Shown piece after piece: positions 2,765-21,990 of a DNA stretch of 64,000 nt. The DNA lies in NCBI RefSeq assembly GCF_010131535.1, contig NZ_WUBS01000007.1, forward strand, positions 186,001-250,000, given 5' to 3'. The notes under the pieces are model-generated. The model searched no databases. It was not told the DNA's origin and worked only from the letters and a program-made list of their open reading frames with translations. Origin of the DNA: Acerihabitans arboris (GTDB lineage: Bacteria > Pseudomonadota > Gammaproteobacteria > Enterobacterales > Enterobacteriaceae). How positions within the stretch are numbered: the first letter of the stretch is position 1; each line of letters opens with the position of its first letter. A program made the position numbers and the translations under genes.

Positions 2765-2779
2765 GGCGGGGGTCCTGTA

Positions 2780-3571: not shown

Positions 3572-3572
3572 A

Positions 3573-3833
3573 TCAGCGTCCCACGGTTTCCATCAGCGTA
3601 AAGGCGGTTTGCGCCAGCCCGATGAGCTCGACGCCTATCCAGCGTCCGGTCAGCGCCAGGGTGACGCCTACCGCCACCAGCTTGATGCTGAAGGGCAAGG
3701 TTTGATCCTGGAGCTGCAAAACCGCCTGCAGCAGCGAGATAATGACGCCCACCACCACCGCGACAATCAGCGGCGGGGCCGACAGGATCACCACCATCAG
3801 CATGCCCTGGCGAAACAGGTTCAGTATGTCCAT
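3573..3833 (-). CDS. hrcS: HrcS, type III export apparatus protein
   Basis: A small SctS/FliQ-family component of the export gate. The 86-residue product, starting MDILNLFRQG, has two transmembrane hairpin helices and the typical VGVIISLLQAVLQLQDQTL motif. I use the ATG at 3833 (GAGGCG about three bases upstream) rather than an upstream in-frame codon, because 86-88 residues is the family length and an earlier start would overlap hrcR. It lies between hrcR and hrcT in the invariant R-S-T-U order. Confidence 0.93.
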   Translation of the reverse strand: MDILNLFRQGMLMVVILSAPPLIVAVVVGVIISLLQAVLQLQDQTLPFSIKLVAVGVTLALTGRWIGVELIGLAQTAFTLMETVGR

Positions 3834-3840
3834 CCGCGCC

Positions 3841-4494: not shown

Positions 4495-4502
4495 AACGGT
4501 GA

Positions 4503-6355: not shown

Positions 6356-6921
6356 AACGTCTCCTGTTGTTGCGTTAGCAGTTGGGTTAACAATAATTCG
6401 AGTTTTTCAACCTCGCGCTGCCGCCGGCGGGCGTCTTCCCGCGCCTGCGCCAGGACGGACTGCAGCGCCTCGCGCTCCCGCGCCAGCTGTTGCAGGTTGC
6501 CCTGATGCCGCGCCACCCGTCCGTGCTCCCGCCGTTCCTGCGCCAGCGTCCGGTCCAGTTGTTCCAGCCGCTGGCGCCGGCCGCGGTTTTCGCGCTCGAA
6601 CCCATCGCGCAGCAGGGCATAGCGTTGGCGTTGCCCGGTCAGCAGGCGTTCTTCCTCCCCGGCCCGATCGACCGATAACCGCAGTTGGCGCTGCTGTTCC
6701 CGCAGCCGCTGCTCGCAGCGCAGCAGCCGCTGGCGGCGGATCGGCAGCAGCAGACGCAGCGCGCGCGACAGCGCCCGCTCCTGGCCGTCAGCGACGCTTT
6801 CCGGCTCCAGCGCGGGATGGCGTTTCTGTTTGCGCCGGAACAACACCGGCGTCAGGCCAGCGACGTTGTCCTGCCCGCAGCCGTGGCCGTGGTCATCATC
6901 CTGGCTACAGCGCCGGCGCAT
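6352..6921 (-). CDS. hrpO: HrpO, type III central stalk/coiled-coil protein
   Basis: A YscO/FliJ-like cytosolic stalk protein that couples the HrcN ATPase to the export gate. The 189-residue product is almost entirely Arg/Gln/Glu/Leu heptads (for example LRCEQRLREQQRQLRLS and VARHQGNLQQLAREREALQ), predicting a long coiled coil. It follows hrcN with a 17-bp overlap and overlaps hrpP by four. The N-terminal ~25 residues (His/Asp/Gly-rich) may be a non-native extension if translation starts at a downstream codon. Confidence 0.85.
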   Translation of the reverse strand: MRRRCSQDDDHGHGCGQDNVAGLTPVLFRRKQKRHPALEPESVADGQERALSRALRLLLPIRRQRLLRCEQRLREQQRQLRLSVDRAGEEERLLTGQRQRYALLRDGFERENRGRRQRLEQLDRTLAQERREHGRVARHQGNLQQLAREREALQSVLAQAREDARRRQREVEKLELLLTQLLTQQQETL

Positions 6922-8272
6922 AATCGCTCACCTCCGCCAGCCGGCGCAGTATTTCAGCAAAATCGTCTGGCTCGCGCGTCCCCTGGCGCAAATAATCGTT
7001 AATGGCGTCCTGGGCCCCCACCGCCGCGTCGGTCAGCGCATCGAAACCCGGCTGGTATTCACCCAGGCGTATCAGCATCTCCACCTGCTGCCAGGCCGCC
7101 ATCAGCCGCCGCACCGCCACCGCCTGCCCGCGCTGCTCCGGCCCGATAATATTGGCCATGACGCGGCTCAGGCTCGCCGGCACGTCGATAGCCGGATAAT
7201 GCCCGCGCTCCGCCAGCTTCCGGCTCAGCACAATATGTCCGTCGATAAGCGAGCGCACCTCGTCGGCCACCGGATCGTTCATGGAGTCCTGCTCTATCAG
7301 GACCGAATACAGCGCGGTAATGGCGCCGGATGACGTTCGTCCCGCGCGTTCAAGCAGCCCCGGCAACAGGGTATACACCGACGGCGGCAATCCGCCGCGC
7401 CCGGGCGGCTCGCCCAGCGCCAACCCTATCTCGCGCTGGGCGCGGGCAAAACGCGTCAGGGAGTCCAGGATAAGCAGCACGCTTTTGCCCGCGTCGCGAA
7501 ACGCCTCCGCTATGGCGGTGGCGGTAAAAGCCGCGCGGGCGCGTTCCATGCTGCTGCGATCGGACGTGGCGCAGATCAGCACCATGCGGTTGCGTAGGCC
7601 GGCGTCCAGTTCATGATCGAGAAATTCCCGCAGCTCCCGTCCACGCTCGCCTATCAGGCCGAATACGATGACGTCGCAGGGCGTATTGCGCGCCAGCTCG
7701 GCCAGCAGCGTGGTTTTGCCGCAGCCGGCGCCGGCAAAAATGCCCACCCGCTGCCCGACGCCCAAGGTCAGCAGACCGTCGATGGCGCGCAGGCCGGTGG
7801 GCAGCGGGGTATCAATCAGCGGCCGGTCGGTGGGCGACGGCGCCCCGCCCAGCACGCCCACCGCGCCGCCATAGTCGCCTGGTTCGGCAAACGCGCCGGT
7901 CCCCCCCGCCACGATGGGACGGCCGAATCCGTCCAGCACGCCGCCCAGCAACCGCGCGGACACGCGGATACCGTGTGGCAGGTACAGCGGCGTGACCCGG
8001 GCGCCCTGGGCGATGCCGTCCAGCGGGCCCAGGGCGGACAACAGGGTATGCTGTGGGTTGAAGCCGACAATTTCCGCCAGCACGTCGGCGTTATCCTTGC
8101 CCTCTATCCGGCAAAGATCGCCGATGCGGGCATGCGGCAGGCGGCTTTCCAGCAGGATGCCGCTGATGCCGGTAATGCGCCCCGTCGCCGTCACCGGCGC
8201 GAAGGCCGCCAGACGCGTTTGCTGCTGCCGGCACCAGCGGTCCAGCGCCTCGTTCCCGATGCCCGTCACCAT
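6905..8272 (-). CDS. hrcN: HrcN, type III secretion ATPase
   Basis: A hexameric ATPase that unfolds substrates and strips chaperones at the cytoplasmic face. The 455-residue product resembles the F1 beta subunit: Walker A GAGCGKTT at residues 181-188, a Walker B region ending in LLILDSLTRFARAQREIGLALGEPP, and the family stretch GRGGLPPSVYTLLPGLLERAG. Length is normal and no catalytic residue appears lost. The start overlaps the hrpQ stop by seven bases. Confidence 0.96.
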   Translation of the reverse strand: MVTGIGNEALDRWCRQQQTRLAAFAPVTATGRITGISGILLESRLPHARIGDLCRIEGKDNADVLAEIVGFNPQHTLLSALGPLDGIAQGARVTPLYLPHGIRVSARLLGGVLDGFGRPIVAGGTGAFAEPGDYGGAVGVLGGAPSPTDRPLIDTPLPTGLRAIDGLLTLGVGQRVGIFAGAGCGKTTLLAELARNTPCDVIVFGLIGERGRELREFLDHELDAGLRNRMVLICATSDRSSMERARAAFTATAIAEAFRDAGKSVLLILDSLTRFARAQREIGLALGEPPGRGGLPPSVYTLLPGLLERAGRTSSGAITALYSVLIEQDSMNDPVADEVRSLIDGHIVLSRKLAERGHYPAIDVPASLSRVMANIIGPEQRGQAVAVRRLMAAWQQVEMLIRLGEYQPGFDALTDAAVGAQDAINDYLRQGTREPDDFAEILRRLAEVSDYAPAL

Positions 8273-9171
8273 TTCACCTTGATTTCATCCCGTCCGTTAA
8301 ACACAATTTCATTGGCGGTAATGGCCACCAGCCGCAGCTGATCCACCTCGTCGCCGATAAACAGACGGTCGCCCTTATCCGTTACCACGTTGGCGCGCGC
8401 GCCGGAGGTGATCTGCACAATTCGAAACGGCAGGGTTGTCTCGCGCGGGCGGGTGTTGTTCACCAGCTTCGGCACCAGGGTATATTGCGCGCGAAAGCGC
8501 AGCAGCATCCTGGCCAGCAGCGCCTGCTGCTCTTTATCCAGGGAGCCGTACAGGATCAGCTTATTTTTATCCATATCGATCCGCACCGCCGGGGTAAGGC
8601 CGCGATCGCGCAGCATGGCCAGCAGCGCGGGACGCAGCTCCTGCAGGGTGGACAGATAGGGACGCTGGGGTTCCTGGGTGGAGATCTGCGCCATCGACGG
8701 CTGGAGGATCCAGCTCGCCACGGTAATGGTCAGCAGCACCATCAGGCTGAAGACGGTGATTTGCAGTGATTTGGGCCAGCCGCGCGCGTGTTTATCCCGG
8801 TTGGGCGGAACGTCCGCGCCCCCGGCCGCCGGCGGAGTGGTCGCCAGCGCTACCGTGGGAATGGCGACGTTTCCCCAAGGCGTCGCCGCGCCGCTGACAC
8901 ACAACCAGGCGCCGCCGGCGGCAAACGGCGCATCCACCGGCAGAACGCCCGGCGCGCCGATGGCCGCGCCGGATGCGTCGCGCCATCCGCCTTCCAGCGC
9001 CTCAAGCCGCCAGCCGTCGCCGGCGCTTAACAGCAGGCCGTGGCAAGACGCCACATCGTCATCGGTCAGTTGCAGATCGGCCTCGCCGGATCGGCCGATA
9101 ACCCAGCGCTCACCGCAAAGCGGCAGCGCCGCTCCCTGGTGACGCCCCGTCAGGACGCGCAGCTCGAACAT
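8266..9171 (-). CDS. hrpQ: HrpQ, inner-membrane ring protein (SctD/YscD-like)
   Basis: The bitopic ring protein SctD, which links the cytoplasmic platform to the periplasmic ring. The 301-residue product has an N-terminal FHA-like domain (RSGEADLQLTDDDVASCHGLLL, near residue 30), a linker, one transmembrane helix near residues 137-156 (ITVFSLMVLLTITVASWIL), and a periplasmic region with BON-like repeats (VRIDMDKNKLILYGSLDKEQ). It lies nine bases after hrcV and overlaps hrcN, the order seen in Erwinia-type Hrp operons. Confidence 0.9.
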   Translation of the reverse strand: MFELRVLTGRHQGAALPLCGERWVIGRSGEADLQLTDDDVASCHGLLLSAGDGWRLEALEGGWRDASGAAIGAPGVLPVDAPFAAGGAWLCVSGAATPWGNVAIPTVALATTPPAAGGADVPPNRDKHARGWPKSLQITVFSLMVLLTITVASWILQPSMAQISTQEPQRPYLSTLQELRPALLAMLRDRGLTPAVRIDMDKNKLILYGSLDKEQQALLARMLLRFRAQYTLVPKLVNNTRPRETTLPFRIVQITSGARANVVTDKGDRLFIGDEVDQLRLVAITANEIVFNGRDEIKVKW

Positions 9172-9180
9172 ATTTTCCTC

Positions 9181-11292
9181 CTAAGCATCAAAGGCCGTTG
9201 GCGAATTGACCAGATCAAACCGTCCCATCACGTTGACAGACAAGGAAACCTGCAGTTCGGCGAACGACAGTACCGGGATGTGATGGAATTCTTCCTGGAT
9301 CAGGCCGCGCATCGGGCTGCGCAGGTCCTGCGCCACCAGGATCACCGCCTGCCGCTCACTGCCCGGCGGGAAGGCCGCGCGCACCTGGCCGAGGAGTTCC
9401 ACCGACTGTTCCTGCGTCAGGGCGAAAAAAATCTCGTTTTGCGTCTGGCGCAGCGCGTCGCGCAGCAGTTCCTCCGCTTCGGGCGTCAGCAGCCAGGCGT
9501 ACAGCCCGTCTTCGCCGGCGTACTGATAACAGAGGTGTTCTTTTAACGTAATGCGCACCAAATCTGTCAGCAGGCTCACGTCGCGTTCGTGCTGGCCATG
9601 CAGCACCAGCGCCTCGGCGATGGCGCGCACCGAACGCAGGGGGATGCGTTCCGCCACCAGGTTTTGCAACACGCTGGAAAAGCGCGCAATCGGCATGACG
9701 CGCTGTAATTCCTGCGCCAGTTCGGACTGTTCCCTTTCCAGCCAAGTCACCAGCGATCGCGTCTCCTGTAGCCCGATAAACCGGGGGCTGCTGGCATGCA
9801 GCGCGTTTTCCATGCGCATCAGCAACAGTTCGCGCGGCGTCCAGCGTTTTACCGCCGCGTCGCCCAGCAGCGGATGGCCGGCGGGCAGCCATAACCACTG
9901 CTGTTCATGACGGTTTTCCATGCCCGCCGCCACGCCCGCGCGATCGGCGTCGGACAGGCTGTCCCCCAGGCTTGCGGCCACCGCCGTCATCGGCACGTTA
10001 AAGGTGCCCGCCACTTTGGGAATTTCATAGACAGAAAAACGCAGCTCATCGGCGGGCATATCCTCGACAAACTCAATATCGAAGGCGGGCAAGGTAAAGC
10101 CGAAGTGGTACACGATGCGGTTGCGCAGGCGACGGATTTCCTGCACCAGTTCCAGGGTTTCCGGCTCGGCGCGCGCGCTGCCGGCGAACTGGAGCAAATA
10201 TGGCCGCGAGGCGTTAAACTCGCGCAGGTCTTCCTTGCCGTTTAATTCCGGCGGGACAACTTCGTTTTCAATCTGCGGCCTGGCCTTGCTGATTTCCCGG
10301 CGCGCGCGCCATACCTGGAAACTGCCGGTGGCCAGGGTGGCGGCGGCAAGCGTCAAAAACACCAGGGTCGGCATGCCGGGCAGCAGCGCAAACCCCAGCA
10401 TGCCAAGGGAGGAGAGGATCCAGGCCTTGGGCTGGCTGGTCAGCTGCTCGGCGATTTCATGGCCGATATTGTTCTCCAGCGCGTCGCCGTCCGATGACAC
10501 GCGGGTAATAATCATCCCGGCGGTCAGGGAGATCAGCAGCGCGGGGATTTGCGCTATCAGTCCGTCGCCGACGGTGAGGATGGAAAAGGTATGCATGGCG
10601 TCGCCCGCCGCCATATCCAGCTGCAGCAGGCCGATGCTAAATCCGCCAATCAGGTTAATGAACAAAATCACCAGCCCGGCAATGGCGTCGCCTTTGACGA
10701 ATTTCATGGCGCCGTCCATGGCGCCGAACAGCTGGCTCTCTTTTGCCAGATCGGTACGGCGGAGTTTGGCCTGCGCCACGTCAATCAACCCCGCACGCAA
10801 ATCGCTGTCGATGGACATTTGTTTGCCCGGCATGGCGTCGAGGGTAAAACGCGCCGCCACTTCCGCCACCCGTTCCGAGCCTTTGGTGATCACCAGGAAA
10901 TTCACCACGGTCAGGATCAGGAACATCACCATGCCCACCGCCAGGTTGCCGCCCACCACAAAGTTGCCGAACGCCGCCACGATATGGCCGGCATCCTGCT
11001 GCACCAGGATCTGGCGGGTGGTGGAAATGGATAACGACAGGCGAAACATGGTGGTTAACAGCAGGACGGCGGGAAACGAGGAAAACGCCAAGGGTTTGGG
11101 CAAATACATCGCCAGCACCACCAGCAGCGACGAGAGACAAATATTGGTGGCGATCAGCGCGTCGATAAGCCCCAGGGGCAGCGGGATAATCAGCATAAAC
11201 ACAATGGCCAGCGCGAACAGCGCGCCGACGATTTCCGATCGCCGCATGGCGCTGATGGCAATCCGGTTAAGCAGCAGAAATAAGGTGTGCAT
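9181..11292 (-). CDS. hrcV: HrcV, type III export gate protein (SctV/FlhA)
   Basis: The large export gate whose cytosolic domain forms a nonameric ring. The 703-residue product has about eight N-terminal membrane helices and the FHIPEP-family signatures LAFSSFPAVLLLTTMFRLSL, VVNFLVITKGSERVAEVAARF and RFTLDAMPGKQMSIDSDLR. A ~350-residue cytosolic domain follows. Length is normal for the family. It follows hrpJ by nine bases and belongs to the same transcript. A long opposite-strand frame through it is a GC artefact. Confidence 0.96.
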   Translation of the reverse strand: MHTLFLLLNRIAISAMRRSEIVGALFALAIVFMLIIPLPLGLIDALIATNICLSSLLVVLAMYLPKPLAFSSFPAVLLLTTMFRLSLSISTTRQILVQQDAGHIVAAFGNFVVGGNLAVGMVMFLILTVVNFLVITKGSERVAEVAARFTLDAMPGKQMSIDSDLRAGLIDVAQAKLRRTDLAKESQLFGAMDGAMKFVKGDAIAGLVILFINLIGGFSIGLLQLDMAAGDAMHTFSILTVGDGLIAQIPALLISLTAGMIITRVSSDGDALENNIGHEIAEQLTSQPKAWILSSLGMLGFALLPGMPTLVFLTLAAATLATGSFQVWRARREISKARPQIENEVVPPELNGKEDLREFNASRPYLLQFAGSARAEPETLELVQEIRRLRNRIVYHFGFTLPAFDIEFVEDMPADELRFSVYEIPKVAGTFNVPMTAVAASLGDSLSDADRAGVAAGMENRHEQQWLWLPAGHPLLGDAAVKRWTPRELLLMRMENALHASSPRFIGLQETRSLVTWLEREQSELAQELQRVMPIARFSSVLQNLVAERIPLRSVRAIAEALVLHGQHERDVSLLTDLVRITLKEHLCYQYAGEDGLYAWLLTPEAEELLRDALRQTQNEIFFALTQEQSVELLGQVRAAFPPGSERQAVILVAQDLRSPMRGLIQEEFHHIPVLSFAELQVSLSVNVMGRFDLVNSPTAFDA

Positions 11293-11301
11293 GCCGCGCC
11301 C

Positions 11302-12489
11302 TTAGCCCCTGATTCGCGGCGGCACGGACGCTTTGGCCCGGTTGCCGCCCAACTGGCCGTTCAGCGCCCGAAGCGCCGCCAGCGCGGCGAAACGGTATTT
11401 ACTTTCGCGCCATAACGAGATCGGCATTTGATTCACCAGGGTCAACAGGCCGTTGAACAGCAGCGATTGCGGATAGGGCTTATTGCCGACCAGTTTGCTG
11501 CCGAGATGTTTAAAATCATCGCGGTAAATACCCTGGTTACCGTAATTAAGCAGCTGACGGGCTAAATCCACCGCGCCCATATTGATCCTGGTCAACGGCA
11601 GTTTGGCCCTCAGCCGCTGCAACAGCTGTTCGCTCACCGCCAGCAGATGGGAAATCTGCACCGTCTGGTTTAGATCGGTGTGGATTTTTTGCAGCGCCCG
11701 GATGGTAATGGAGGGCGCCAACGCCACGATTTCATCCGCCAACGCCCGCTGGAAGGCGCGCAGCGCCGCGGGAAAATGCTGGCCGAAATGCGCCAGCAGT
11801 TGATCCAGCATGGCGTAGGCCGATTGTTGATGGACAATGCTCTCGTAATAAATGGCGCGCATCTTTTGCTTTACCTGCGGATCGGAGGTAAACGCGGCAA
11901 TGGCCGCGGCGGTGTTCAAACCGGCGTTAACTTCCCGGCCGCGCTGCTGATGGAGCTGTTCCAGCGCTTCCCCCGCCAGGGCGGCAATCCGCGTATCGCC
12001 CTTCTCCCGGGCGTTAGTCAGCGTCATGCCCAGCAGCACATCGCAGCGCGCGGCGTCATTATCGGCCGCGTCGATCAGTTGCCCGACGGCGGGTGGCCGC
12101 GCCCCGCCGCCTGACATCAACGCCTGGCGTATGGCGACGAGCTGCTTTTCCAGGCGCCCCTGCTGCTGCCCATCCAGCAATTGATACAGGCCGATCAGGC
12201 TCTGGATACGCTCAACCGCGCCGCGGTTGCCCTTCAAATGCCGGATATTCACCTCCCGGCTCTCGAGACTCTTGCTTTTGTACTCTTCCCTTTCGCCAAA
12301 CAGCATGCCGATTTCCTCTTTCGCGTCGTCGGCGGTGGCCAGGACGGAACGAAACGAAGCGGCATCGGATTTCACCGCGCCGCCGGCGGGCGGCAGCGCG
12401 GATTCATCCGGCGGCGCGGGAGATTTTCCCAGGCCGGGATTAAACGGAGCGGACTGCGGTACTTTTGACATAGTGGAAAGGTCACTCAT
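11302..12489 (-). CDS. hrpJ: HrpJ, type III secretion gatekeeper (SctW/YopN-TyeA-like)
   Basis: A gatekeeper controlling the order of translocator and effector secretion. The 395-residue product has a Ser/Pro/Gly-rich secreted N-terminus followed by HrpJ/YopN-type helical bundles (KSKSLESREVNIRHLKGN, RDDFKHLGSKLVGN). It is the first gene of the minus-strand Hrp operon, 16 bp from the hrp box at 12506-12533. That gives a very short leader if the ATG at 12489 is used. The in-frame ATG at 12471 is an alternative start. Neither has a strong ribosome binding site. Confidence 0.88.
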   Translation of the reverse strand: MSDLSTMSKVPQSAPFNPGLGKSPAPPDESALPPAGGAVKSDAASFRSVLATADDAKEEIGMLFGEREEYKSKSLESREVNIRHLKGNRGAVERIQSLIGLYQLLDGQQQGRLEKQLVAIRQALMSGGGARPPAVGQLIDAADNDAARCDVLLGMTLTNAREKGDTRIAALAGEALEQLHQQRGREVNAGLNTAAAIAAFTSDPQVKQKMRAIYYESIVHQQSAYAMLDQLLAHFGQHFPAALRAFQRALADEIVALAPSITIRALQKIHTDLNQTVQISHLLAVSEQLLQRLRAKLPLTRINMGAVDLARQLLNYGNQGIYRDDFKHLGSKLVGNKPYPQSLLFNGLLTLVNQMPISLWRESKYRFAALAALRALNGQLGGNRAKASVPPRIRG

Positions 12490-12505
12490 CGTTTCACGTT
12501 GAGTT

Positions 12506-12533
12506 TCTGTGGTCGTTTTTAGCGAAGAGTTCC
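12506..12533 (-). promoter_or_regulatory. hrp box (HrpL promoter) of the hrpJ operon
   Basis: On the minus strand the sequence is GGAACT-N15-CCACAGA. This fits the HrpL-dependent consensus GGAAC(C/T)-N15/16-CCACNNA at every defined position. It ends 16 bases before the hrpJ start, so the whole hrpJ-hrcU operon should depend on the HrpL sigma factor encoded divergently next to it. Confidence 0.9.
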
Positions 12534-12701
12534 CATGATTGTGTATTCACCGCTGAGATTTCACCGCATTCGAAATAACGCCGGCGTGGGTTGTGAAAAA
12601 AATGGCACAAATCAGCCGGCACGCAGGAAAAAACATTCTCAGAATATTCTTATCCGCCATTAAATATTAATTAAAAACAACCGTTAACCTTGCATATGAA
12701 T

Positions 12702-12717
12702 TTGGCATGTATATTGC
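12702..12717 (+). promoter_or_regulatory. Sigma-54 (-24/-12) promoter of hrpL
   Basis: TTGGCATGTATATTGC has the GG and GC dinucleotides with ten bases between them, matching the RpoN consensus TGGCA-N5/6-TTGC. It lies 45 bp before the hrpL ATG in an AT-rich region. In Erwinia and Pseudomonas hrpL is driven by RpoN with the enhancer-binding protein HrpS, so the same control is expected here. hrpS itself is not in the window. Confidence 0.9.
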
Positions 12718-12762
12718 CTTGGCTCTCCTGCAATATATAAAACTAATTTCAGGAGAATTTAA

Positions 12763-13305
12763 ATGACTGATGCTCTTGTTGAAATATCATTTGATAGGGT
12801 TTGTCTCCCATTCGTTAACTGGGAAGATATTTTCCGTCAGCAACAAAAAAAACTGCAGAACTTCATCCGTAAACGTGTGGCTAATAAAGAGGATATTGAA
12901 GATTTGGCGCAAATGACTTATCTGGAGGTGTTAAGAAACTGTCATAAATTTTCCGGAGCCTCCAAGCCAGAAACCTGGGTATTCGGCATTGCGCTTAATC
13001 TGATAAGAAACCACTATAAAACCCATAAAGGGCAATATCTTACCGATGTACTAAACGAAGAGGACACCTATGACCTGACCCATGATAATGACCCATGCCA
13101 TATTATTGAAAATGCCCAACTGCTGCGGATAGCCATGGCATCAATTGAAAATTTCTCGCCGCAGATTAAAGAAATGCTGTCAATATTGGTCGAGCGCGAC
13201 GGCAGTTATCAGGACGTTGCCGCCGTACTTAATATTCCCGTCGGCACGGTGCGCTCACGATTATCCCGGGTGCGCGAGTCATTGAAAAACAGCACCGGTT
13301 TGTGA
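12763..13305 (+). CDS. hrpL: HrpL, ECF sigma factor for hrp genes
   Basis: An ECF-type alternative sigma factor that directs RNA polymerase to hrp boxes. The 180-residue product has region 2 (LQNFIRKRVANKEDIEDLAQMT and KPETWVFGIALNLIRNHY) and a region 4 helix-turn-helix (DGSYQDVAAVLNIPVGTVRSRLSRVRE). A strong AGGAG sits seven bases before the ATG. It is divergent from hrpJ, which carries a matching hrp box, and is preceded by a sigma-54 site. The coding sequence is more AT-rich than the hrc genes, as is common for hrpL. Confidence 0.93.
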   Translation: MTDALVEISFDRVCLPFVNWEDIFRQQQKKLQNFIRKRVANKEDIEDLAQMTYLEVLRNCHKFSGASKPETWVFGIALNLIRNHYKTHKGQYLTDVLNEEDTYDLTHDNDPCHIIENAQLLRIAMASIENFSPQIKEMLSILVERDGSYQDVAAVLNIPVGTVRSRLSRVRESLKNSTGL

Positions 13306-13388
13306 AGGGTATTGTTATTTTTTTAGACGTTGTTCGCTTTTTTTATAAAATATCAAATTTTAATGCTTTTTCTGTTATTTTGTGACGG

Positions 13389-13467
13389 TAACACCCTTAT
13401 AACGGCAAGAAAAGGCCTTGCCGTTATAAACCGATGCTATAATACTTATCCTTAACACCCTTATAAC
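13389..13467 (+). promoter_or_regulatory. hrpX promoter with direct and inverted repeats
   Basis: An extended -10 element, TGC-TATAAT, lies at 13435-13443. It is bracketed by a perfect 15-bp direct repeat, TAACACCCTTATAAC, at 13389-13403 and 13453-13467. Part of the first copy is also mirrored as a 13-bp inverted repeat (TTATAACGGCAAG at 13397-13409 against 13417-13429). The hairpin could end hrpL transcription, but there is no T-tract. The symmetry around the -10 suggests an operator, perhaps bound by HrpY. Confidence 0.6.
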
Positions 13468-13509
13468 CTGACATGCGATTTTTATTAATCTATCAAAGCA
13501 GAATAAAAT

Positions 13510-15144
13510 ATGAATTTATCCGAAATTTTTTGCGGAAACTCAATGAAAAACGCCGATATGGACATGATTATTTCTCCCTCTTTTGTCCTGGATCGCATCA
13601 ATGATGCAATCTATCTGGTTAATCAAGAGTTAGAGCTGGTTTATATCAATAATAAAGCCTGCCGTATGCTGGGATATACACACCATGAAATGACGCAGCT
13701 ACGGCTTTCGGATGTTGACCATGAGCTTAAGGATCGGGATGTCAGCATGCTGTGGTGGAAACTCAGCATGCAGCCGAACGGGATACGGTTTACCTCCCAG
13801 CATCGCGATCGGGCCGGTAATTTAATACCGGTGGAAATCAGCTCCAGCCATTACGCTGTTCATCGACCGGAACATATCCTGTGCGTGGTGCGGGATATTC
13901 GGGATATCAAGCAGCAAACGCTACGGCGACTAGAACAGGAGCAACAGTTTCGCTCGCTGGTGGAAAATACGCCGGAGCTGATTGCCCGCTTTGATCTCAA
14001 CATGCGCTGCGTCTACGTCAACGCGTCGGTATTAGACCTGTTGGGCTGCGATCTGCGCCAGGCCGAAGGCTGGAAGCTGACCGATTGCATTCCCTGGCAT
14101 GAGGCGGGCATGGGGTTGTTTAAACTGGTGACCAGCACCCTGCCCTCGGGTAAAAGCAGCGAGGGCGAACTGGCCCTGGAGATCGGCGGTACGCAGAAAG
14201 TGGTGCACGTGCGCTGCGTGGCCGAATTTGACCTGCTCGGGCAGATAAAAAGCATTTTGACCATCGGCCGGGATATTACCCAATTCCGGGAAACGGAAAG
14301 ACAGCTGCGGGAAAGCCATCGCCAGTTGAGGATGCTGGCGCGCACGCAAAACGCTCGGGGCGAGCTGGAGCGCAAGCATATTGCCCGCGAAGTGCATGAC
14401 GAACTGGGGCAGCATTTGACCTCGCTGCGCGTCGGCTTATCGCTGATGAATATGCAATTGGCAAAAAATGAGCGTGGCGCTGCGCATAAGAATGCCGGGA
14501 CGAATGCCGATGCGGGCGTCAGTATGAATGCCGAGGCTCATACCGCGATGCAAGCCGGCAACCATGCCGGTATTGACGCCGGTGGGCGTATCGGCGCGAA
14601 TGGCGGTACACGTGGCGCCGGCGGGCATACCGGCGGTCGGGATCCGGTCGATGATATCTATGCCGGACAGATGGCCAACCTGATGGCGCTGGTGGACAGC
14701 ACCATTCACGTCGTGCGGGATATCTCGACGCGCCTGCGGCCGAACGTGTTGAACATGGGCCTGATCCCGGCGCTGGAATGGCTGCGCGATGAGTTTATCC
14801 GCCATAACCAATGCGGCTGCGTGCTGATTGCGCCGGATGAAAATGACGTCAGGCTGGACGAGGAAAGCAGCACGACGGTGTTCCGCGTGGTGCAGGAGTC
14901 GCTGACCAACGTTACGCGCCATGCCATGGCAACCAAAGTCACCCTTATCGTGCAGCTCAATCAAAAAACCCTGCAGATCCTGATTCGTGACAACGGCCGC
15001 GGTTTCCGGCCCGAGCGTATTGCTAAAAATGCGTTTGGCCTGCTCGGCATCCGGGAACGCGTCGCCATGCTTAACGGCGCGGTGACTATCGACAGCGCGC
15101 CCGGCAAAGGAACCTTAATCCGTTTGACGCTGCCGATCGGGTAG
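13510..15144 (+). CDS. hrpX: HrpX, PAS-domain sensor histidine kinase of the hrp system
   Basis: A soluble kinase that phosphorylates HrpY; HrpXY then supports hrpS and hrpL expression. The 544-residue product has no membrane segment. It contains two PAS domains (about residues 20-135 and 140-265), a HisKA_3 dimerisation domain with phospho-acceptor His296 (AREVHDELGQHLTSLR) and a HATPase domain (VVQESLTNVTRHA; DNGRGF; GLLGIRERV). Residues ~320-381 are an Ala/Gly/Asn/His-rich low-complexity insert between the two dimerisation helices. I know of no such insert in Erwinia or Pectobacterium HrpX. hrpY follows 53 bp later. Confidence 0.92.
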   Translation: MNLSEIFCGNSMKNADMDMIISPSFVLDRINDAIYLVNQELELVYINNKACRMLGYTHHEMTQLRLSDVDHELKDRDVSMLWWKLSMQPNGIRFTSQHRDRAGNLIPVEISSSHYAVHRPEHILCVVRDIRDIKQQTLRRLEQEQQFRSLVENTPELIARFDLNMRCVYVNASVLDLLGCDLRQAEGWKLTDCIPWHEAGMGLFKLVTSTLPSGKSSEGELALEIGGTQKVVHVRCVAEFDLLGQIKSILTIGRDITQFRETERQLRESHRQLRMLARTQNARGELERKHIAREVHDELGQHLTSLRVGLSLMNMQLAKNERGAAHKNAGTNADAGVSMNAEAHTAMQAGNHAGIDAGGRIGANGGTRGAGGHTGGRDPVDDIYAGQMANLMALVDSTIHVVRDISTRLRPNVLNMGLIPALEWLRDEFIRHNQCGCVLIAPDENDVRLDEESSTTVFRVVQESLTNVTRHAMATKVTLIVQLNQKTLQILIRDNGRGFRPERIAKNAFGLLGIRERVAMLNGAVTIDSAPGKGTLIRLTLPIG

Positions 15145-15197
15145 ACAGCCTGTCCCGGCCACCGGACTTTTAAACGACGCAACGCAAGGTATGGCCT

Positions 15198-15836
15198 ATG
15201 AGCGAAACAATACGTTTAATGATAGCGGACGATCACGCCATCATGCGTGAAGGTTTAAAACAGATTTTCCTGCTGGACAGCGATATCAAAGTGGTCGCCG
15301 AGGCCGCCGACGGCGAACAGGTGCTGGAGAAATTGCGCCCCGGCGCCGTTGATCTGCTGCTGCTGGATATTTCCATGCCCGGCATCAGCGGCGAGGATCT
15401 GATCCACCGCATCCTGTCGCGTTATGCGTCTTTACCCATCCTGGTGCTCAGCATGTTCAATGAGCCGCAAATAGCCCACCGGATGCTGAAATGCGGCGCC
15501 CTGGGATATATCACCAAAGACAAAAATCCCGATGAGCTGCTGGTGGCTATCAGACGCGTCGCCAGGGGATCCCGCTATATCGACCATGATTTGGCGGAGC
15601 AAATCGTCTTTGCCGAATATATTCACGGCGGCCGGTTTGCCCATGAAAACCTCACCATGCGCGAGCGGCAAATCATGATACTGCTGACCCACGGCGAAAC
15701 CATTAACGCCATTGCCGAGTCCTTGTCCATCAGCAATAAAACCGTCAGTACCTATAAATCGCGCATGATGGAAAAAATGAAATTCGCCAATAACGCCGAC
15801 ATAATTAAATACTCCATAACACATAAGCTGCTGTAG
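15198..15836 (+). CDS. hrpY: HrpY, NarL/FixJ-family response regulator
   Basis: The DNA-binding partner of HrpX. The 212-residue product has a receiver domain with acidic pocket Asp11-Asp12, phospho-acceptor Asp57 (LLLLDISMPG) and Lys near residue 108, and a C-terminal LuxR-type helix-turn-helix (LTMRERQIMILLTHGETINAIAESLSISNKTVSTYKSRMM). Length is normal. In other Hrp1 clusters hrpS comes next. Here the Hrp locus stops and a Kdo-related operon follows. Confidence 0.93.
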   Translation: MSETIRLMIADDHAIMREGLKQIFLLDSDIKVVAEAADGEQVLEKLRPGAVDLLLLDISMPGISGEDLIHRILSRYASLPILVLSMFNEPQIAHRMLKCGALGYITKDKNPDELLVAIRRVARGSRYIDHDLAEQIVFAEYIHGGRFAHENLTMRERQIMILLTHGETINAIAESLSISNKTVSTYKSRMMEKMKFANNADIIKYSITHKLL

Positions 15837-16199: not shown

Positions 16200-16802
16200 T
16201 TATCGTGTTGCCAGCCGCCTGCCCAGATTTCCCGCCGGATGGTTTTTAGAAAAATCCTTATCTGAAAATCCCTTTAATTCCATCAGCGCGATAGCGATGG
16301 CGTCCCCGATGGCCAGCGTGGCGCTCGCGCTCACCGTGGGCACGATATTAAATAGGCAGGCCTCGCCCTTGATATCAAACGAGATATCGATATCAACGCT
16401 TTCCGCCAGGGGAGACCGGCTATTCCCGGTGATGGCTATCATCGGGATCCCCCGTTGTTTTAAAAAAGGAATCAAATGCATGATCTCATCGGTTTTGCCG
16501 CTGTAAGAAATTAATATAATAATGTCATTAGCCATTATCATGCCCAGATCGCCATGTTTCGCTTCGACCGGATGGATAAAAAAGCTTGGGGTGCCGGTGG
16601 ATGACAGGCTGGAGCAGATTTTGCGGCCCATATGGCCGCTTTTGCCCACGCCGAGGATCACGACATGGCCGGTGGACGAATGAATCAAATTAACCGCCTC
16701 ATAAAACCCCGTGTCGCACAGTGAGTCGGACATTGCGTATAACGCTTCGGCTTCCTTAAGGACCACCCTGCTGCCAATTTGTATTATCGATTGCTTATTC
16801 AT
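16200..16802 (-). CDS. SIS-domain arabinose-5-phosphate isomerase-like protein, no CBS domains
   Basis: Predicted to interconvert ribulose-5-phosphate and arabinose-5-phosphate, the first step toward Kdo. The 200-residue product is a single SIS domain with KdsD/KpsF/GutQ hallmarks: GKSGHMGRKICSSLSSTGTPSFF, HPVEAKHGDLGM, ISYSGKTDE and a C-terminal HPAGNLGRRL. Classical family members are about 320 residues, with two CBS domains after this point. Here a TAA follows at once and I see no CBS coding downstream. SIS-only isomerases are known, so it may still be active. The ATG at 16802 follows GAGGA by six bases and is preferred to 16814. It is the last gene of a five-gene operon, 35 bp after kdsB. 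Confidence 0.8.
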   Translation of the reverse strand: MNKQSIIQIGSRVVLKEAEALYAMSDSLCDTGFYEAVNLIHSSTGHVVILGVGKSGHMGRKICSSLSSTGTPSFFIHPVEAKHGDLGMIMANDIIILISYSGKTDEIMHLIPFLKQRGIPMIAITGNSRSPLAESVDIDISFDIKGEACLFNIVPTVSASATLAIGDAIAIALMELKGFSDKDFSKNHPAGNLGRRLATR

Positions 16803-16837
16803 GTGTTTCCTCATCCCGATGAAAAGACGATGATGTT

Positions 16838-17566
16838 TTAGGCCAGCAGGCGCCGCGCTGTATCAAGGTCGTCCTGGGTATCGACGCCGAGTGGATTAAC
16901 GTCCACGATGGAAATATCAATGCGCATGCCGTTCTCCAGCGCACGCAGTTGTTCCAGCTTTTCCCGTTGTTCAAGCGGACCGGGCGGCAATTGGGCGAAT
17001 TTTATCAGCGCGTCGCGCTTATAGGCATAAAGGCCTATATGGTGATAGTGCCCGCCGCAGCCCCAGGGGATGGTGTTGCGGCTGAAATAAACGGCCCGCC
17101 CGGTCTTGCCGCCTGCCTGCAGGGAAATCGCCGCCTTGACCACGCTGTCGGAAAGCCGCTCGGCCGGGGTAGCGATAAGGGATGCCAGCGTCGCTATCTC
17201 GGTATCGGGATCGCATAACGGCGCCACCAGCGCCGTCAGCATCGCGGGGTCGGCGGTCGGCATATCTCCCTGCAAATTAACGATCACCTCATACTTTCCG
17301 CCGGGATCGATCGATTTAAGCGCCGCAAATACCCGATCCGAACCGCTGATAAGCCGTGGGTCCGTTATGACGGCCTCGCCTCCCGCGCCGCGAACGGCAT
17401 CGGCAATCTGCTCATCGCCGCAGGCGACAATGACCGGGCCGAGATTGGCTTCCATTCCCCGCCGCCAGACATGAACAATCATGGGTACGCCATGAATATC
17501 GGCCAGCGCTTTGTTCGGTAACCTGGATGAAGCCAACCGGCTGGGGATAATAGTGATAACGTCCAT
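16838..17566 (-). CDS. kdsB: CMP-Kdo synthetase (3-deoxy-manno-octulosonate cytidylyltransferase)
   Basis: Activates Kdo or an analogue with CTP to give the CMP-sugar. The 242-residue product has the N-terminal nucleotide loop IIPSRLASSRLPNK, MIVHVWRR, the QGD motif (NLQGDMP where enteric KdsB has QGDEP), YFSRNTIPW, HHIGLYAYKRDALIKF, PLEQREKLEQLRALENG and VNPLGVDTQDDL. Several of these read more like alphaproteobacterial KdsB than the enteric housekeeping enzyme. That suggests a second, acquired copy, possibly with altered sugar specificity. It sits between the dehydrogenase and isomerase genes. Whether the housekeeping kdsB exists elsewhere cannot be seen here. Confidence 0.88.
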   Translation of the reverse strand: MDVITIIPSRLASSRLPNKALADIHGVPMIVHVWRRGMEANLGPVIVACGDEQIADAVRGAGGEAVITDPRLISGSDRVFAALKSIDPGGKYEVIVNLQGDMPTADPAMLTALVAPLCDPDTEIATLASLIATPAERLSDSVVKAAISLQAGGKTGRAVYFSRNTIPWGCGGHYHHIGLYAYKRDALIKFAQLPPGPLEQREKLEQLRALENGMRIDISIVDVNPLGVDTQDDLDTARRLLA

Positions 17567-17590
17567 ATTTACCTCGTTTGAAGACCAGGG

Positions 17591-18598
17591 TCAGAGCTGC
17601 TCATGAGTGATGATTTTTTTATTTGATTTTATCTTTCCATAATTAGCAAAGACATTATTGATATCCTCGAAAGAATGAAAACTGAGCAGATTATCATGCT
17701 GCGCGCTCCAATTATCCGCCAGCAGCAATGCCGCGTCGGTCATATTAATGATGTCGCCGTTCAGGTGACAAAGCGTTATTTCAGGCTGTTTCCACGGCAG
17801 TCTTTCCGGAATAAACGGCTCGTCGGCATGATATCGGCTTAACAACATCAGCCGGGAACATTTTTCAAGTAAATCACACGCCAGCATAAACCCCCCGGCG
17901 GCCCCGGTGGCTTCAAAAATGAGATCAAAACGTTGCCCGGCCTTGGGGGTCCTGATCCTATCCGGATAAAGGCTGCGGATATGGTCGGTTTTAAATTCGT
18001 TATGGTCATGGATATACAGGTCGGCCGCGGTGGTTTCAAGCAAGGCGAATGCCAGTAAGGTGCCCAATCCGCCGCAGCCGAGCACCAGTATTTCGCCTTT
18101 GCGGTCCGACAGGTTGCTTAATGCCAGGGCATGGAGCGCCACCGACAGGGGTTCGACCAGCGCGCCGATATGGTCATTCCGATAAGCGGGTAATTTATGC
18201 ACGTAGGAATGATGGATGTCAATGTAGCCGGCAAAACCACGGTTGGAATAATGCTGTTCCCCGCCGTTGATGCAAAGATGGCCTTTTTTTTGCCGGCAAA
18301 AATGGCATTGCCCGCAGCGAAAATTAGGATCGATCACCACCTGGCACCCTGCCTGCAGGTTTATTACGCCGGCGCCGATGGCTTTGATAACCCCGCAATG
18401 CTCATGTCCTAAGGAAATCGGATAACCTTCATTCCTGTGGCCGAGATAAAATGATTTATCTGTTCCACACACGCCGCAATAACTTATTTTTATCCTGACA
18501 TAACCGGGTAAAATATCTTCTTCAAGCTGATGGCTGGCAAAAGAAAACTTTCCTGGTTCGAGGAGTACGGCCACGGTATTCACGCACTGGTTGCTCAT
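17591..18598 (-). CDS. Zinc-dependent medium-chain alcohol dehydrogenase
   Basis: A 335-residue NAD(P)-linked oxidoreductase of the sorbitol/threonine-dehydrogenase type. It has catalytic zinc ligands in CGVCGTDK and GHEHCG and a four-cysteine structural zinc loop (CGQCHFCRQKKGHLC). The Rossmann motif is VLGCGGLGT. Its start overlaps the aminotransferase stop by four bases (ATGA), so the two are almost certainly co-translated. An alcohol-to-aldehyde oxidation feeding a transamination fits that pairing. With kdsB next, a sugar hydroxyl such as C8 of Kdo is a plausible substrate; this is inference. Confidence 0.85.
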   Translation of the reverse strand: MSNQCVNTVAVLLEPGKFSFASHQLEEDILPGYVRIKISYCGVCGTDKSFYLGHRNEGYPISLGHEHCGVIKAIGAGVINLQAGCQVVIDPNFRCGQCHFCRQKKGHLCINGGEQHYSNRGFAGYIDIHHSYVHKLPAYRNDHIGALVEPLSVALHALALSNLSDRKGEILVLGCGGLGTLLAFALLETTAADLYIHDHNEFKTDHIRSLYPDRIRTPKAGQRFDLIFEATGAAGGFMLACDLLEKCSRLMLLSRYHADEPFIPERLPWKQPEITLCHLNGDIINMTDAALLLADNWSAQHDNLLSFHSFEDINNVFANYGKIKSNKKIITHEQL

Positions 18599-20016
18599 GA
18601 TTCCCTCCCTGCCTGTTCAAGATCCCTAACCGCGGCGGCGGCCTGTTCCAGGGTATAGTCGATATCGGCGACGCTATGGGCCGTAGAGACGTACCACAAT
18701 CCTTCCGGGGTAATCCTCACGCCTCTTTCCTGCAGCGCCGCATGCCACCCGATGACCAGCGGTTGATTAACGCCATCGCGCGCCGTCCGGTAATCGCGGG
18801 CCACCGCCGGCGTCGCCCTGAAGGTAGTGGTGACCGCGCCGGGGCTTGCCCTGACCTGCATGGACAATGCCGTGCCTCCGGCAATGTCCTGCAGTCCCGC
18901 GCGCAGGGCCTCGCTCAGCAGATGGATTTTGTTCAGCGCCTCGCCGCCGTTTTCAGCCAATATGTCCAGGTTCATTATTGCGCCGGCCAGAAATGGCGGG
19001 AACGCGTTGTAGGTGCCGGTATGCAGGGTCCCGGCGCCGGCAAGCAGGCGCATATGCCGTTCTTTGCCGGCGACGGCCGCCAGGCAAACCGGACCGCCCA
19101 TCGCCTTGGCGAAGGTGGTGATATCAGGCGTCACGCCATAATAGCCCTGGGCGCCGCCGAGAGCCGTCCTGAAGCCGGTCTGTATTTCATCGAATATCAG
19201 CAGGATGTGGTATTTATCGCACAGCGTTTTTATCCTGGTTAAATAATTTTCTTCCGGCCGGATATTGCTCCAGAAGCTGTTGAACATGATGGGCTCGGTC
19301 ACCACCGCCGCAACCTCATGCGCCCGGCTGGATAACACGCGCTCCAGCGCGTCGCCGTCGTTCCAGCATAACGAGATGATATTGCGGGCATCGCCGGCGG
19401 GCTGGCCCTGGGACATGGCGATCGGGGTGTTGTCCTGGCGGGAGTTATTTCCGTCGACGTCATTGCCGTGGGCATTGTTTACCGGGACGCTGTTTTCATG
19501 CAGGTCGCCTGGTTGGGCAACGTTACCCTGTACTGCGCCTTCAGGGGCGCTGAATCCCCATGCAATATTGTCGAACCAGCCGTGGTAATGCCCCTCGAAA
19601 CGTATGATTTTTTCACGGCCGGTGGCGGATCTGGCCAGGCGAAGAGCCACATGGATCGCCTCCGACCCTGAGTTGCAAAATCTGATCATTTCCGCGCCGG
19701 GCACCAGGTGTCGTATCTTTTCCGCCAGGACCACCTCCAGTTCGGTTTGCCCGGCAAAAAACTGCCCCGCCTGATACTGCCGGTTAATGGCGTCAAGGAT
19801 ACGGGGATTGGAATGACCGGTAATCAACGGACCCCTGCCCAGGACATAATCCAGGTATCGATTGCCATCCGCGTCCCAGACATGCGCCCCTTGCGCTTTT
19901 TTATAAAACAGGGGATGCGGCCGCCAGTTTGCCCGGTTATTACTTGAAATACCGCCAGGAATAATATTTGACGCCCGTTTATGCAGCGCGTGGGATATAG
20001 CATAATCATTTTGCAT
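18595..20016 (-). CDS. Class III PLP aminotransferase (glutamate-1-semialdehyde mutase-like)
   Basis: The 473-residue product resembles HemL-type aminotransferases: GGISSNNRANWRPHPLF, FCNSGSEAIHVALRLAR, FEGHYHGWFDN, LLIFDEIQTGFR and the PLP lysine Lys304 in TTFAKAMGGP. It is too diverged and wrongly placed to be the tetrapyrrole enzyme. Residues ~165-205 are an Asn/Asp/Gly/Gln-rich insertion where relatives have a shorter loop. It lies between the sialidase-like gene (18 bp upstream) and the dehydrogenase (four-base overlap). The likely role is amination of the aldehyde made by the dehydrogenase. Confidence 0.82.
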   Translation of the reverse strand: MQNDYAISHALHKRASNIIPGGISSNNRANWRPHPLFYKKAQGAHVWDADGNRYLDYVLGRGPLITGHSNPRILDAINRQYQAGQFFAGQTELEVVLAEKIRHLVPGAEMIRFCNSGSEAIHVALRLARSATGREKIIRFEGHYHGWFDNIAWGFSAPEGAVQGNVAQPGDLHENSVPVNNAHGNDVDGNNSRQDNTPIAMSQGQPAGDARNIISLCWNDGDALERVLSSRAHEVAAVVTEPIMFNSFWSNIRPEENYLTRIKTLCDKYHILLIFDEIQTGFRTALGGAQGYYGVTPDITTFAKAMGGPVCLAAVAGKERHMRLLAGAGTLHTGTYNAFPPFLAGAIMNLDILAENGGEALNKIHLLSEALRAGLQDIAGGTALSMQVRASPGAVTTTFRATPAVARDYRTARDGVNQPLVIGWHAALQERGVRITPEGLWYVSTAHSVADIDYTLEQAAAAVRDLEQAGRES

Positions 20017-20034
20017 CCAGCCCCCTTGTTATTA

Positions 20035-21297
20035 TCAAATTACTAATGAACGAAAATTCCTGATGGTGTGGAACGTGACCAGATTTGCATATTGTCCGTC
20101 TTTTGCAAAGCCGTCGCCGGAGCGCGCCACCAATAATATATCCTGTCCGGAAAACACAAATGCGGGATAGTTCCTGGCGTGATACTCTGTTTCACCTTTG
20201 CTGATGATATGTGCCTGCATCCAATCAACACAGTTCGATGAATAATACAATCCCAGTATGTTTCTTTGGTTTGATGGCAAATTATATCTTCCGGTTGGAG
20301 TTTCCGATAATTTACACATTGAGTCCATGATAATGGAGCTCGCCATCCAATATAATTGAGTAATTGCATCATATAAAATATAGAACTTCAGGCTCCCGCC
20401 GGGAAAGGGGATATACGACAGTACCTTGCCCGACGGGGCCTTGACATCATGCAGGGTAATGCCGCCGTCCTCTTGCTCTATCGCCTTGAGCACCGAGGCA
20501 TAACCGCTGCCGTTGGTGTTGGCGCGCAAGATGATATAGAGCGTCGCGTTATTTGGGTCGTGCCAGATATGTTTTGGATCCGTTATCCTGACCAGGTTTC
20601 CCTCAAGCCAGCCCGGCGGCGAGGCGCAAATCGTCGGCGTAAGGGATCTTGGCCCCGCGTGCTCCGAAGGATAAAAAGGGATGCCGAAATTTTCGCCGAA
20701 GCTAGCCGCGCGGTAGTCAAATTTGTCTTTGAAGGCGAAACCCGCGGAAAATGTCCAGGCCGGGCGTTCCAGCAAATTGCCGCTGTCGTCGCCGCGCAAG
20801 ATCACCGGCGTAAGCCCCGCGACGTTCCAGCCGGTGATAGCCAGATCCGTTCTCAGGTCCATGCACATATAGATGGCGCCGTTTTCCTGCAGGATATTGG
20901 TCGCCGAACCATGCCATAGTTCATTGCGGGTCAGCGGCGCGGGCGCGGTCCAGGTCATGCCGTCGTCCCGGGACCTGATGATATAGAGATCGCCCGCGTT
21001 GCCGATAATATACAGGCAGCCCCGGCATTCAAACGGCCGCGCGTGCCAGAAGGGAAAGGATCCGCGTTCAACCCAGCTTTGCCCCAGGTCGTCGGAGATG
21101 AAAATCTTGCCGACGCCGCGGCGTTTCGTGCGTTTATTGATGCTTTTTTGCTGGTTATCCAGGCCGGGGCCGCCGAGATCCAGCGTGACCACCAGCCTGC
21201 CGCTGGACGTTTTCAGTATTGCCGGCGTATAACACCAAAGCTGGGTTGGATTGCCTGATCGATAAATGACGTGCCCATCATTTCCTGTATTAGCCAT
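20035..21297 (-). CDS. Sialidase-fold (BNR/Asp-box) protein, candidate ulosonic-acid glycosidase
   Basis: The 420-residue product carries two clear Asp boxes, SDDLGQSW and SRDDGMTW. It begins with a YRSGNPTQLWCYTP segment like the N-terminal strand of six-bladed sialidase propellers. There is no signal peptide or membrane segment, so a cytoplasmic location is expected. The ATG at 21297 follows GGAG by six bases and is preferred to 21318. It is the promoter-proximal gene of the operon. Sialidase-fold enzymes can cleave 2-keto-3-deoxy sugars such as Kdo as well as sialic acids, and the Kdo-type neighbours favour that. The substrate is unproven. Confidence 0.65.
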   Translation of the reverse strand: MANTGNDGHVIYRSGNPTQLWCYTPAILKTSSGRLVVTLDLGGPGLDNQQKSINKRTKRRGVGKIFISDDLGQSWVERGSFPFWHARPFECRGCLYIIGNAGDLYIIRSRDDGMTWTAPAPLTRNELWHGSATNILQENGAIYMCMDLRTDLAITGWNVAGLTPVILRGDDSGNLLERPAWTFSAGFAFKDKFDYRAASFGENFGIPFYPSEHAGPRSLTPTICASPPGWLEGNLVRITDPKHIWHDPNNATLYIILRANTNGSGYASVLKAIEQEDGGITLHDVKAPSGKVLSYIPFPGGSLKFYILYDAITQLYWMASSIIMDSMCKLSETPTGRYNLPSNQRNILGLYYSSNCVDWMQAHIISKGETEYHARNYPAFVFSGQDILLVARSGDGFAKDGQYANLVTFHTIRNFRSLVI

Positions 21298-21990
21298 GCG
21301 CCGCTCCATTGCTTCCATGTATTGTTGCCGGCCGTTACCCCAAGCCCGTTTTACACTCTTGCCGTTGACGCCTTTGCCGGCGAAAAGAGTCTATAGAACC
21401 GATGCATTGAATTATTTTAAACTAGTTATAACTTAATTAATTATTAAAACACTATTATTAAAATACAATTATTCAAACAAATAGTCACTCAAAAAATCTC
21501 AGAGAAAATAATTCATGTAAATTTAATCGCCGGGAGACGTAATTAAAAAATAATTAGATTGTTTTATAAATTCATCCAGAATGAGTTACTTGAATCAATC
21601 AATACACTCTGGTACATAAACTGGTATAATGTCAATGAATATTACGTCGGTAAAATAAACGTATGCTCAACACCGATAAATGAAAAAGCACGCTCACCTT
21701 ATTGTCATCGGTGAACAACCCGCGGCCAGGAACGACGGGAGTCGATTAACGCGCCGGAACCCTGTTTTCCGGCGGTGGAGCCCGGCAGAGTGCCTGCGGG
21801 CGGCGCGGTTAACAAGCGTTATCGGACATTTTTCAACGGGCGATTCCATAATGATAAAGTCAAATGCAAGCGTCTGATATTCATTGGATCGATGCCGCAT
21901 AAATGGCACCATTGCGCTGATACTCTTCCCGGCATGTGTTACCCTTTTTACCGGTTTGGGTGAAACGATAATTTAATCAAGACGGTAATC
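21298..21990. other. AT-rich intergenic region before the LacI gene
   Basis: Nearly 700 bp with no gene I can support. The stretch 21400-21680 is far more AT-rich than its surroundings and probably holds the minus-strand Kdo-operon promoter. On the plus strand an extended -10, TGG-TATAAT, lies at 21622-21630. A 65-codon plus-strand frame at 21680-21877 has no recognisable product and is not called. Confidence 0.6.

Follow-up and report, generated by a model that had tools for sequence, protein, structure and literature searches.

A conserved five-gene operon of Acerihabitans arboris and a possible route to an amino form of Kdo

What do five adjoining sugar-type genes make in the enterobacterium Acerihabitans arboris? 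The question arises from a 64,000-nucleotide stretch of its genome (contig NZ_WUBS01000007.1; here called the window), which carries genes for a sialidase-fold protein, an aminotransferase, a dehydrogenase, a CMP-Kdo synthetase (KdsB) and an isomerase in a single row. No sugar of the Gram-negative outer membrane is more conserved than Kdo (3-deoxy-D-manno-oct-2-ulosonic acid), and modified versions of it are known to arise by few routes. A reading made from the sequence alone had proposed that these genes make and activate a modified, perhaps 8-amino, Kdo. The five genes form a real and conserved operon. A plausible reading, which falls a little short of an even chance, is that this accessory operon oxidises, transaminates and CMP-activates Kdo, with an amino-Kdo as its product.

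Layout and conservation of the operon

All five genes lie on the minus strand. The first (20035..21318) is an open reading frame (ORF) for a cytoplasmic-looking protein of 427 amino acids, here called SIAL, whose fold comes from a structure model. It is followed by genes for a 473-residue HemL-like class III aminotransferase (18595..20016; PF00202 at 187.1 bits over a cut-off of 30.5), a 335-residue zinc-dependent medium-chain dehydrogenase (MDR) of polyol-dehydrogenase type (17591..18598; PF08240 at 71 bits, and motifs), an accessory KdsB of 242 residues (16838..17566) and a 204-residue, SIS-only arabinose-5-phosphate isomerase of KpsF/KdsD type (16200..16814). Successive gaps are 18, -4, 24 and 23 bp. 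Upstream of the operon, sequence inspection finds an AT-rich region (21319..21990, minus strand), divergent from a lacI gene.

The sequence-only reading had called five same-strand genes of these families, and all five ORFs are present with Pfam/NCBIfam support. Where it described four-base overlaps or short gaps, the short gaps hold, but the overlap is confined to one junction, that of the aminotransferase and dehydrogenase genes. It began the operon at 21297; the gene stands, but its ORF opens at 21318, and 21297 is a later in-frame ATG. It was also right that no kdsA, kdsC or glycosyltransferase gene is linked: none was found in the operon or among the scanned neighbours on either side, which cover part of the window's genes (on one flank, genes for type III secretion and regulators; on the other, lacI, MFS, enolase-family, crp-like, methyltransferase and ABC genes).

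The operon recurs within the genus. Six genus genomes, the source included, were searched with KdsB; all six hold a housekeeping KdsB and two the operon type. One of the five congeners (G638) has all five genes in identical order, with identities of 69, 64, 68, 74 and 75% from first gene to last, and shares the 4-bp overlap. The same five-gene set, which the earlier reading had proposed to look for in other genomes, is thus not co-located in the source alone. Between the two species, dN/dS (Nei-Gojobori) for the genes in order is 0.098, 0.174, 0.134, 0.115 and 0.112, at dS values of 1.3-2.4 that are near saturation, and the operon appears to be under purifying selection. A SIAL query of 295 genomes of the order, a sample that does not include G638, matched the source genome alone. 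No description of the five-gene operon was found in the titles and abstract openings of the limited set of literature searched.

A possible route to an amino-Kdo

The operon KdsB passes NF003948 (337.3 over 281) and TIGR00466 (169.4 over 155.2), and its nucleotide- and sugar-binding motifs look intact. It is an additional copy, as the housekeeping kdsB of the host lies on another contig and shares 41% identity with it. The isomerase, a bare SIS domain, passes TIGR00393 (208.8 over 203.7) and PF01380 (82.1) and fails the KdsD and GutQ equivalogs (209.7 against 481 and 205.9 against 505); it has no CBS domains. Its nearest solved structures are 5uqi (an SIS-only phosphosugar isomerase), 2xhz (E. 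coli KdsD) and 3etn (named for capsule formation).

In the dehydrogenase, the motifs CGVCGTD, GHEHCG, CGQCHFCRQKKGHLC, VEPLSV and GCGGLG are found; the zinc-ligand motifs are present and align with solved zinc dehydrogenases, and VEPLSV is one that we take to be typical of polyol dehydrogenases. No relative above 60% identity was found for this enzyme in plasmids (best about 29%). The aminotransferase has the region around the pyridoxal phosphate-binding lysine, TFAKAMGG, aligned with solved relatives, and fails the HemL equivalog TIGR00713 (303.8 against 527.3). Its nearest solved relatives are glutamate-1-semialdehyde aminomutases, and class III C-6' aminotransferases are also among them.

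From these assignments we infer the substrates, the order of steps, the amine-forming step, the product and its destination. The SIS isomerase would convert ribulose 5-phosphate to arabinose 5-phosphate, which host KdsA and KdsC would turn into Kdo (a housekeeping pathway assumed here, of which kdsB alone was seen). The zinc dehydrogenase would then oxidise one hydroxyl of free Kdo, the HemL-like aminotransferase would replace the resulting carbonyl with an amine, and the amino product would become a CMP-sugar through the accessory KdsB. C8 is the favoured position, since the class III enzymes that aminate aminoglycosides at C-6' use terminal aldehydes as substrates; the amine could also sit at C7 or elsewhere. 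SIAL, whose role is the least certain part of the proposal, may act on the ulosonic acid itself as a mutarotase, as a hydrolase (of the CMP-sugar) or as a transferase. As the operon has no glycosyltransferase of its own, housekeeping WaaA may put the modified sugar into the lipopolysaccharide (LPS) core, as in Shewanella. Of the earlier reading, the gene calls, the operon and the oxidise-transaminate-activate logic around KdsB and the isomerase stand, while the amine at C8 of Kdo is conjecture.

Several points weigh against this route. The operon KdsB is close to ordinary KdsB from another proteobacterial class (55-59%), with no visible change suggestive of an aminated substrate. The closest relatives of the dehydrogenase are polyol and butanediol dehydrogenases, enzymes that act mostly on secondary alcohols, and a sorbitol-dehydrogenase-type MDR may equally oxidise a secondary alcohol here. 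The aminotransferase has no close relative outside the genus, and hence no genomic context backs its substrate: none was found in 398 phylum genomes (E<=1e-85) or in plasmids above 60% identity (best about 38-39%). SIAL has no obvious place in a pathway to 8-amino-Kdo (Kdo8N). Finally, no glycosyltransferase is linked, and the arrival of the modified sugar in LPS is purely inferred.

The ordinary character of KdsB also suits a simpler explanation, in which the isomerase and KdsB just boost the supply of ordinary CMP-Kdo, and the dehydrogenase and aminotransferase make a different unit, for instance an amino-alcohol or some other amino sugar, for attachment to Kdo within a glycan or small molecule. 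An isomerase and kdsB without kdsA or kdsC fit such a role, and a KpsF-kdsB pair stands alone in a polysaccharide-type region of a Ruegeria plasmid. The known parallel is the KpsF/KpsU pair of group 2 capsules, which likewise adds an isomerase and a CMP-Kdo synthetase but no kdsA/kdsC. However, the operon isomerase lacks CBS domains, the dehydrogenase and aminotransferase are extra, and the source genome has no KpsC/KpsS: PF05159 gave 0 matches there and matched in the E. coli control, by which a group 2 capsule was rejected. Nor is there a glycosyltransferase among the scanned neighbours. One joint pathway is favoured by the position of the dehydrogenase and aminotransferase genes, which share a 4-bp overlap in each of the two species and directly precede kdsB. 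A division of the operon into Kdo supply and a separate building block thus seems unlikely, though it deserves serious weight.

If the amino-Kdo route is real, it has a precedent in Shewanella, whose Kdo8N pathway uses a DegT-type aminotransferase, KdnA, followed by a dedicated KdsB. The proposed logic is alike, as Kdo would be oxidised, transaminated and activated by a separate KdsB. The enzymes differ: the operon's aminotransferase is of class III (PF00202) and failed the homology test with KdnA, and its dehydrogenase, a zinc MDR (PF08240), failed that with KdnB, an iron-type alcohol dehydrogenase described as a Kdo 8-oxidase that takes the first step to Kdo8N (PMC5125639). Kdo8N itself has been reported as a hallmark of the LPS of Shewanella (PMC6357163). 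In comparison, the operon has an additional isomerase and sialidase-fold protein. By analogy, it may work like the Shewanella route with unrelated enzymes.

Another parallel comes from aminoglycosides, where a dehydrogenase and a class III aminotransferase likewise act on a sugar. At aminoglycoside C-6', a terminal alcohol is taken to an aldehyde and then to an amine. The dehydrogenase of that pair is of another type, however, and the operon's pair is linked to KdsB and an isomerase.

Sialidase-fold relatives beside Kdo genes

SIAL scores under the Pfam cut-off (PF13088, 20.4 against 31.4), and its predicted structure is a six-bladed sialidase fold. Across 13 aligned sequences, a set that holds near-duplicates (two from Sinorhizobium and several from Burkholderiaceae), Y384, E239, R265 and R352 are invariant, with an order and spacing by alignment position that fit the sialidase Tyr, Glu and two of its Arg residues. 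The first carboxylate-binding Arg, that of the FRIP motif, is absent from all 13, where Tyr, Gly or Ser stands instead. The acid/base Asp, presumably 24-25 residues after the FRIP Arg, is held at that position (by position alone) in 2/13, both from the genus. A further Arg near the C-terminal end, R399, is invariant (13/13). In contrast to GH33 sialidases and KDNases, then, the alignment shows SIAL to have an altered predicted active site.

The genes around its relatives bear directly on the theme of the operon. A tblastn search of 72,556 plasmid records gave three SIAL matches at E<=0.01, and a kdsB-type gene adjoins the match in all three; for scale, the operon KdsB matches 72 plasmid records at E<=1e-5. 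Two are symbiosis plasmids of Sinorhizobium chiapasense and S. mexicanum, where a 47% identical relative lies 180 bp from a divergent cytidylyltransferase gene (about 33-36% to the operon KdsB). The third is a Burkholderia pyrrocinia replicon, with a 22% relative accompanied by kpsF, kdsB, HAD and kdsA. A seven-sequence SIAL profile matched two of 398 phylum genomes (the source and G583) and five of 170 genomes of the family of G583, the Burkholderiaceae. In four of those five the relative lies within about 4 kb of a kdsA-HAD-kdsB-kpsF cassette (HAD being kdsC); in G729, some 15 kb separate it from kdsA, HAD and kpsF, and the stretches examined show no cassette kdsB.

Altogether, every full-length proteobacterial relative found outside the genus (8/8; two from Sinorhizobium, six from Burkholderiaceae) is near Kdo-synthesis genes. 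Including the source and G638 the count is 10/10 in three lineages, of which two give independent support, since the source and G638 were the starting point. Planctomycete (40%), uncultured-bacterium (L005, 26%) and phage (35%) relatives have no Kdo-gene neighbour in the DNA examined. Left out of these counts were L006, L007 and L008, in which the match is confined to Asp-box repeats of much larger proteins (L008 is from Paramagnetospirillum, a proteobacterium), and a weak phage-scaffold match (H72, 24%). Among 190 genomes from the class to which G446 belongs, the profile found no match, a negative that shows nothing in a set with no positive; Sinorhizobium plasmids do carry relatives, if that class is Alphaproteobacteria. 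These gene neighbourhoods show the SIAL family to be repeatedly linked to Kdo synthesis, and they are the strongest new evidence. They strengthen Kdo as the theme of the operon, since Sinorhizobium and Burkholderiaceae each provide an independent tie between SIAL and Kdo genes.

The surroundings of the relatives differ between lineages. On the Sinorhizobium plasmids (L042 and L043, 4373-12232), SIAL and the divergent KdsB-type gene stand beside asnB, two S-adenosylmethionine-dependent methyltransferase genes and a CDP-alcohol phosphatidyltransferase gene, near nifQ and rpoN. The Burkholderiaceae clusters (L044, L047, L052, L053, L055, and L054 with L057) hold kdsA-HAD-(kdsB)-kpsF, glycosyltransferase genes and a PAP2 gene. 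Their sialidase-fold relative (21.7-24% identity) likewise lies beside Kdo genes, but it has a signal-peptide-like N-terminus (by eye), its cluster has glycosyltransferases and kdsA/kdsC, and no aminotransferase or dehydrogenase of the operon type is found within the stretches examined. An acidic Burkholderia exopolysaccharide is described as three galactoses and one Kdo (PMC5507470), and by analogy the clusters would fit the making of a Kdo polymer. On a phage contig to which PHROGs assigns terminase, portal and head morphogenesis genes (L087), the 35% relative (1025-2404) lies between terminase and portal; its N-terminus is hydrophobic, and it may perhaps modify Kdo on the surface of the host. 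In the planctomycete locus (L004, 9932-13214), the relative is followed by a DHDPS-family aldolase gene and then a further gene, which looks like a locus for ulosonic-acid breakdown.

The planctomycete arrangement suggests that the operon itself might be catabolic, with SIAL freeing Kdo-type acids (for instance those of plant pectin or foreign LPS) for processing by the remaining enzymes, and the lacI-MFS-enolase genes next to the operon do resemble those of sugar-acid catabolism. However, these three are present without the operon in another congener (G641), no secretion signal was seen on the window SIAL, and the operon has no aldolase or kinase, while KdsB and an arabinose-5-phosphate isomerase are anabolic enzymes. 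A salvage role is accordingly very improbable.

A bolder view takes the SIAL family as a new Kdo-processing enzyme that forms a glycosyl-tyrosine and completes an exported amino-Kdo product, which the foreign KdsB would both activate and guard against. The retained Tyr-Glu pair, with the acid/base Asp and first Arg lost, would suit a donor whose leaving group departs readily, namely CMP-Kdo or its amino form, from which the ulosonic acid would be released, rearranged or transferred. This is a speculation to which we give little credence.

Acquisition and genomic surroundings

The relationships of the accessory KdsB point outside the host's class. It matches 66 of 398 phylum genomes at E<=1e-66, the source included, and the others, at 47-59%, belong to another class. 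Its best named plasmid matches are in Sinorhizobium chiapasense (55%), Methylobacterium bullatum (54%) and Shinella (52.5%), and from these names the class is taken as Alphaproteobacteria. In a tree, the operon KdsB falls within the KdsB group of that class (97/97), apart from the host copies (100/99), with G353 and an accessory KdsB from Sinorhizobium as its closest neighbours (96/84); three sequences, those of Sinorhizobium L042, Streptomyces L040 and L039, sit on long branches and are not placed securely. Because KdsB groups with another proteobacterial class, apart from the host housekeeping copy, the operon is judged to be horizontally acquired. As a control, none of the other four genes was found within about 7 kb of same-type kdsB genes at any of 18 loci (one locus one-sided), out of 19 listed beside the source locus; set against this, the recurrence of all five genes in order in G638 is more than expected by chance.

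Two of the related kdsB loci have settings of their own. In L039 (8001-9529), the nearest named relative of the operon KdsB, an accessory copy, lies on a Sinorhizobium plasmid, where it and a hypothetical protein are embedded in a region of sugar ABC-transporter genes. On a Streptomyces plasmid (L040, 7542-9717), kdsA, an SIS isomerase gene and kdsB are consecutive, with cytochrome P450 and terpene synthase genes nearby, which is unusual for an organism without LPS.

The site of insertion can be recognised. On one side of the window operon are the lacI, MFS transporter and enolase-family genes, and the operon of G638 adjoins the same three (80, 88 and 96% identity), with an EcsC-family gene between lacI and the operon (L012, 8089-8964). 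Because lacI and cstA adjoin without an insert in G641 (83% complete), which thus has the empty site, lacI-cstA is an insertion site, and the window operon and a type III secretion cluster share it. The dS of the three neighbour genes is 0.69-0.94, against the higher values of the operon genes, which would fit an older or separate acquisition of the operon.

In G638, an EamA-type transporter gene follows the operon after 46 bp on the same strand (L012, 14410-15264), and then cstA. This arrangement gives a slight gain to the small-molecule alternative that the sequence-only reading had offered. In the form weighed here, the product is an exported Kdo analogue, as an antimetabolite or signal, and KdsB activates it, protects the producer, or both. 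8-Amino-Kdo analogues are known synthetic inhibitors of KdsB. The lack of a linked glycosyltransferase and a sporadic distribution at an insertion hot spot also suit such a product. Yet the source genome has no EamA gene beside its operon, the nearest match being 31% identical and about 60 kb off; an ordinary-type KdsB with intact motifs gives no evidence of resistance; and no assembly, peptide or polyketide genes are linked. An exported analogue is therefore improbable.

On the other side of the operon, in this genome of 5.64 Mb and 56 contigs, profile scans find the type III secretion cluster, of Hrp-like kind, at 1682-15836. It includes genes of SctU type (1682-2764) and SctQ type (4503-5792), an SctN-type ATPase (6905-8272), SctV (9181-11292) and SctW (11302-12489), and an ECF sigma factor, a PAS histidine kinase and a response regulator complete it; its regulators are ones that we take to resemble hrpL-hrpX-hrpY of plant-associated enterobacteria. 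Dependence of the operon on this cluster was rejected because G638 has the operon without such a cluster in the 20 kb examined. Control by the neighbouring Hrp regulator was likewise set aside, as no hrp-box-like site with one mismatch lies upstream on the operon strand. The window as a whole has eight such sites at one mismatch and no exact one (raw count). Two hrp-box-like GGAACT-N15-CCAC sites, both on the minus strand, lie at 16107, just past the 3' end of the operon, and at 12533, where the site precedes the SctW gene.

The operon is probably a new variant on a known type of pathway. If the amino-Kdo route is true, it would be a second and non-homologous one, and evolution would have converged on an LPS modification that alters surface charge. 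The sialidase-fold family, with its apparently rebuilt active site, accompanies Kdo-synthesis genes across several lineages, has a member in a phage, and offers a testable way to approach the bacterial processing of Kdo glycosides.

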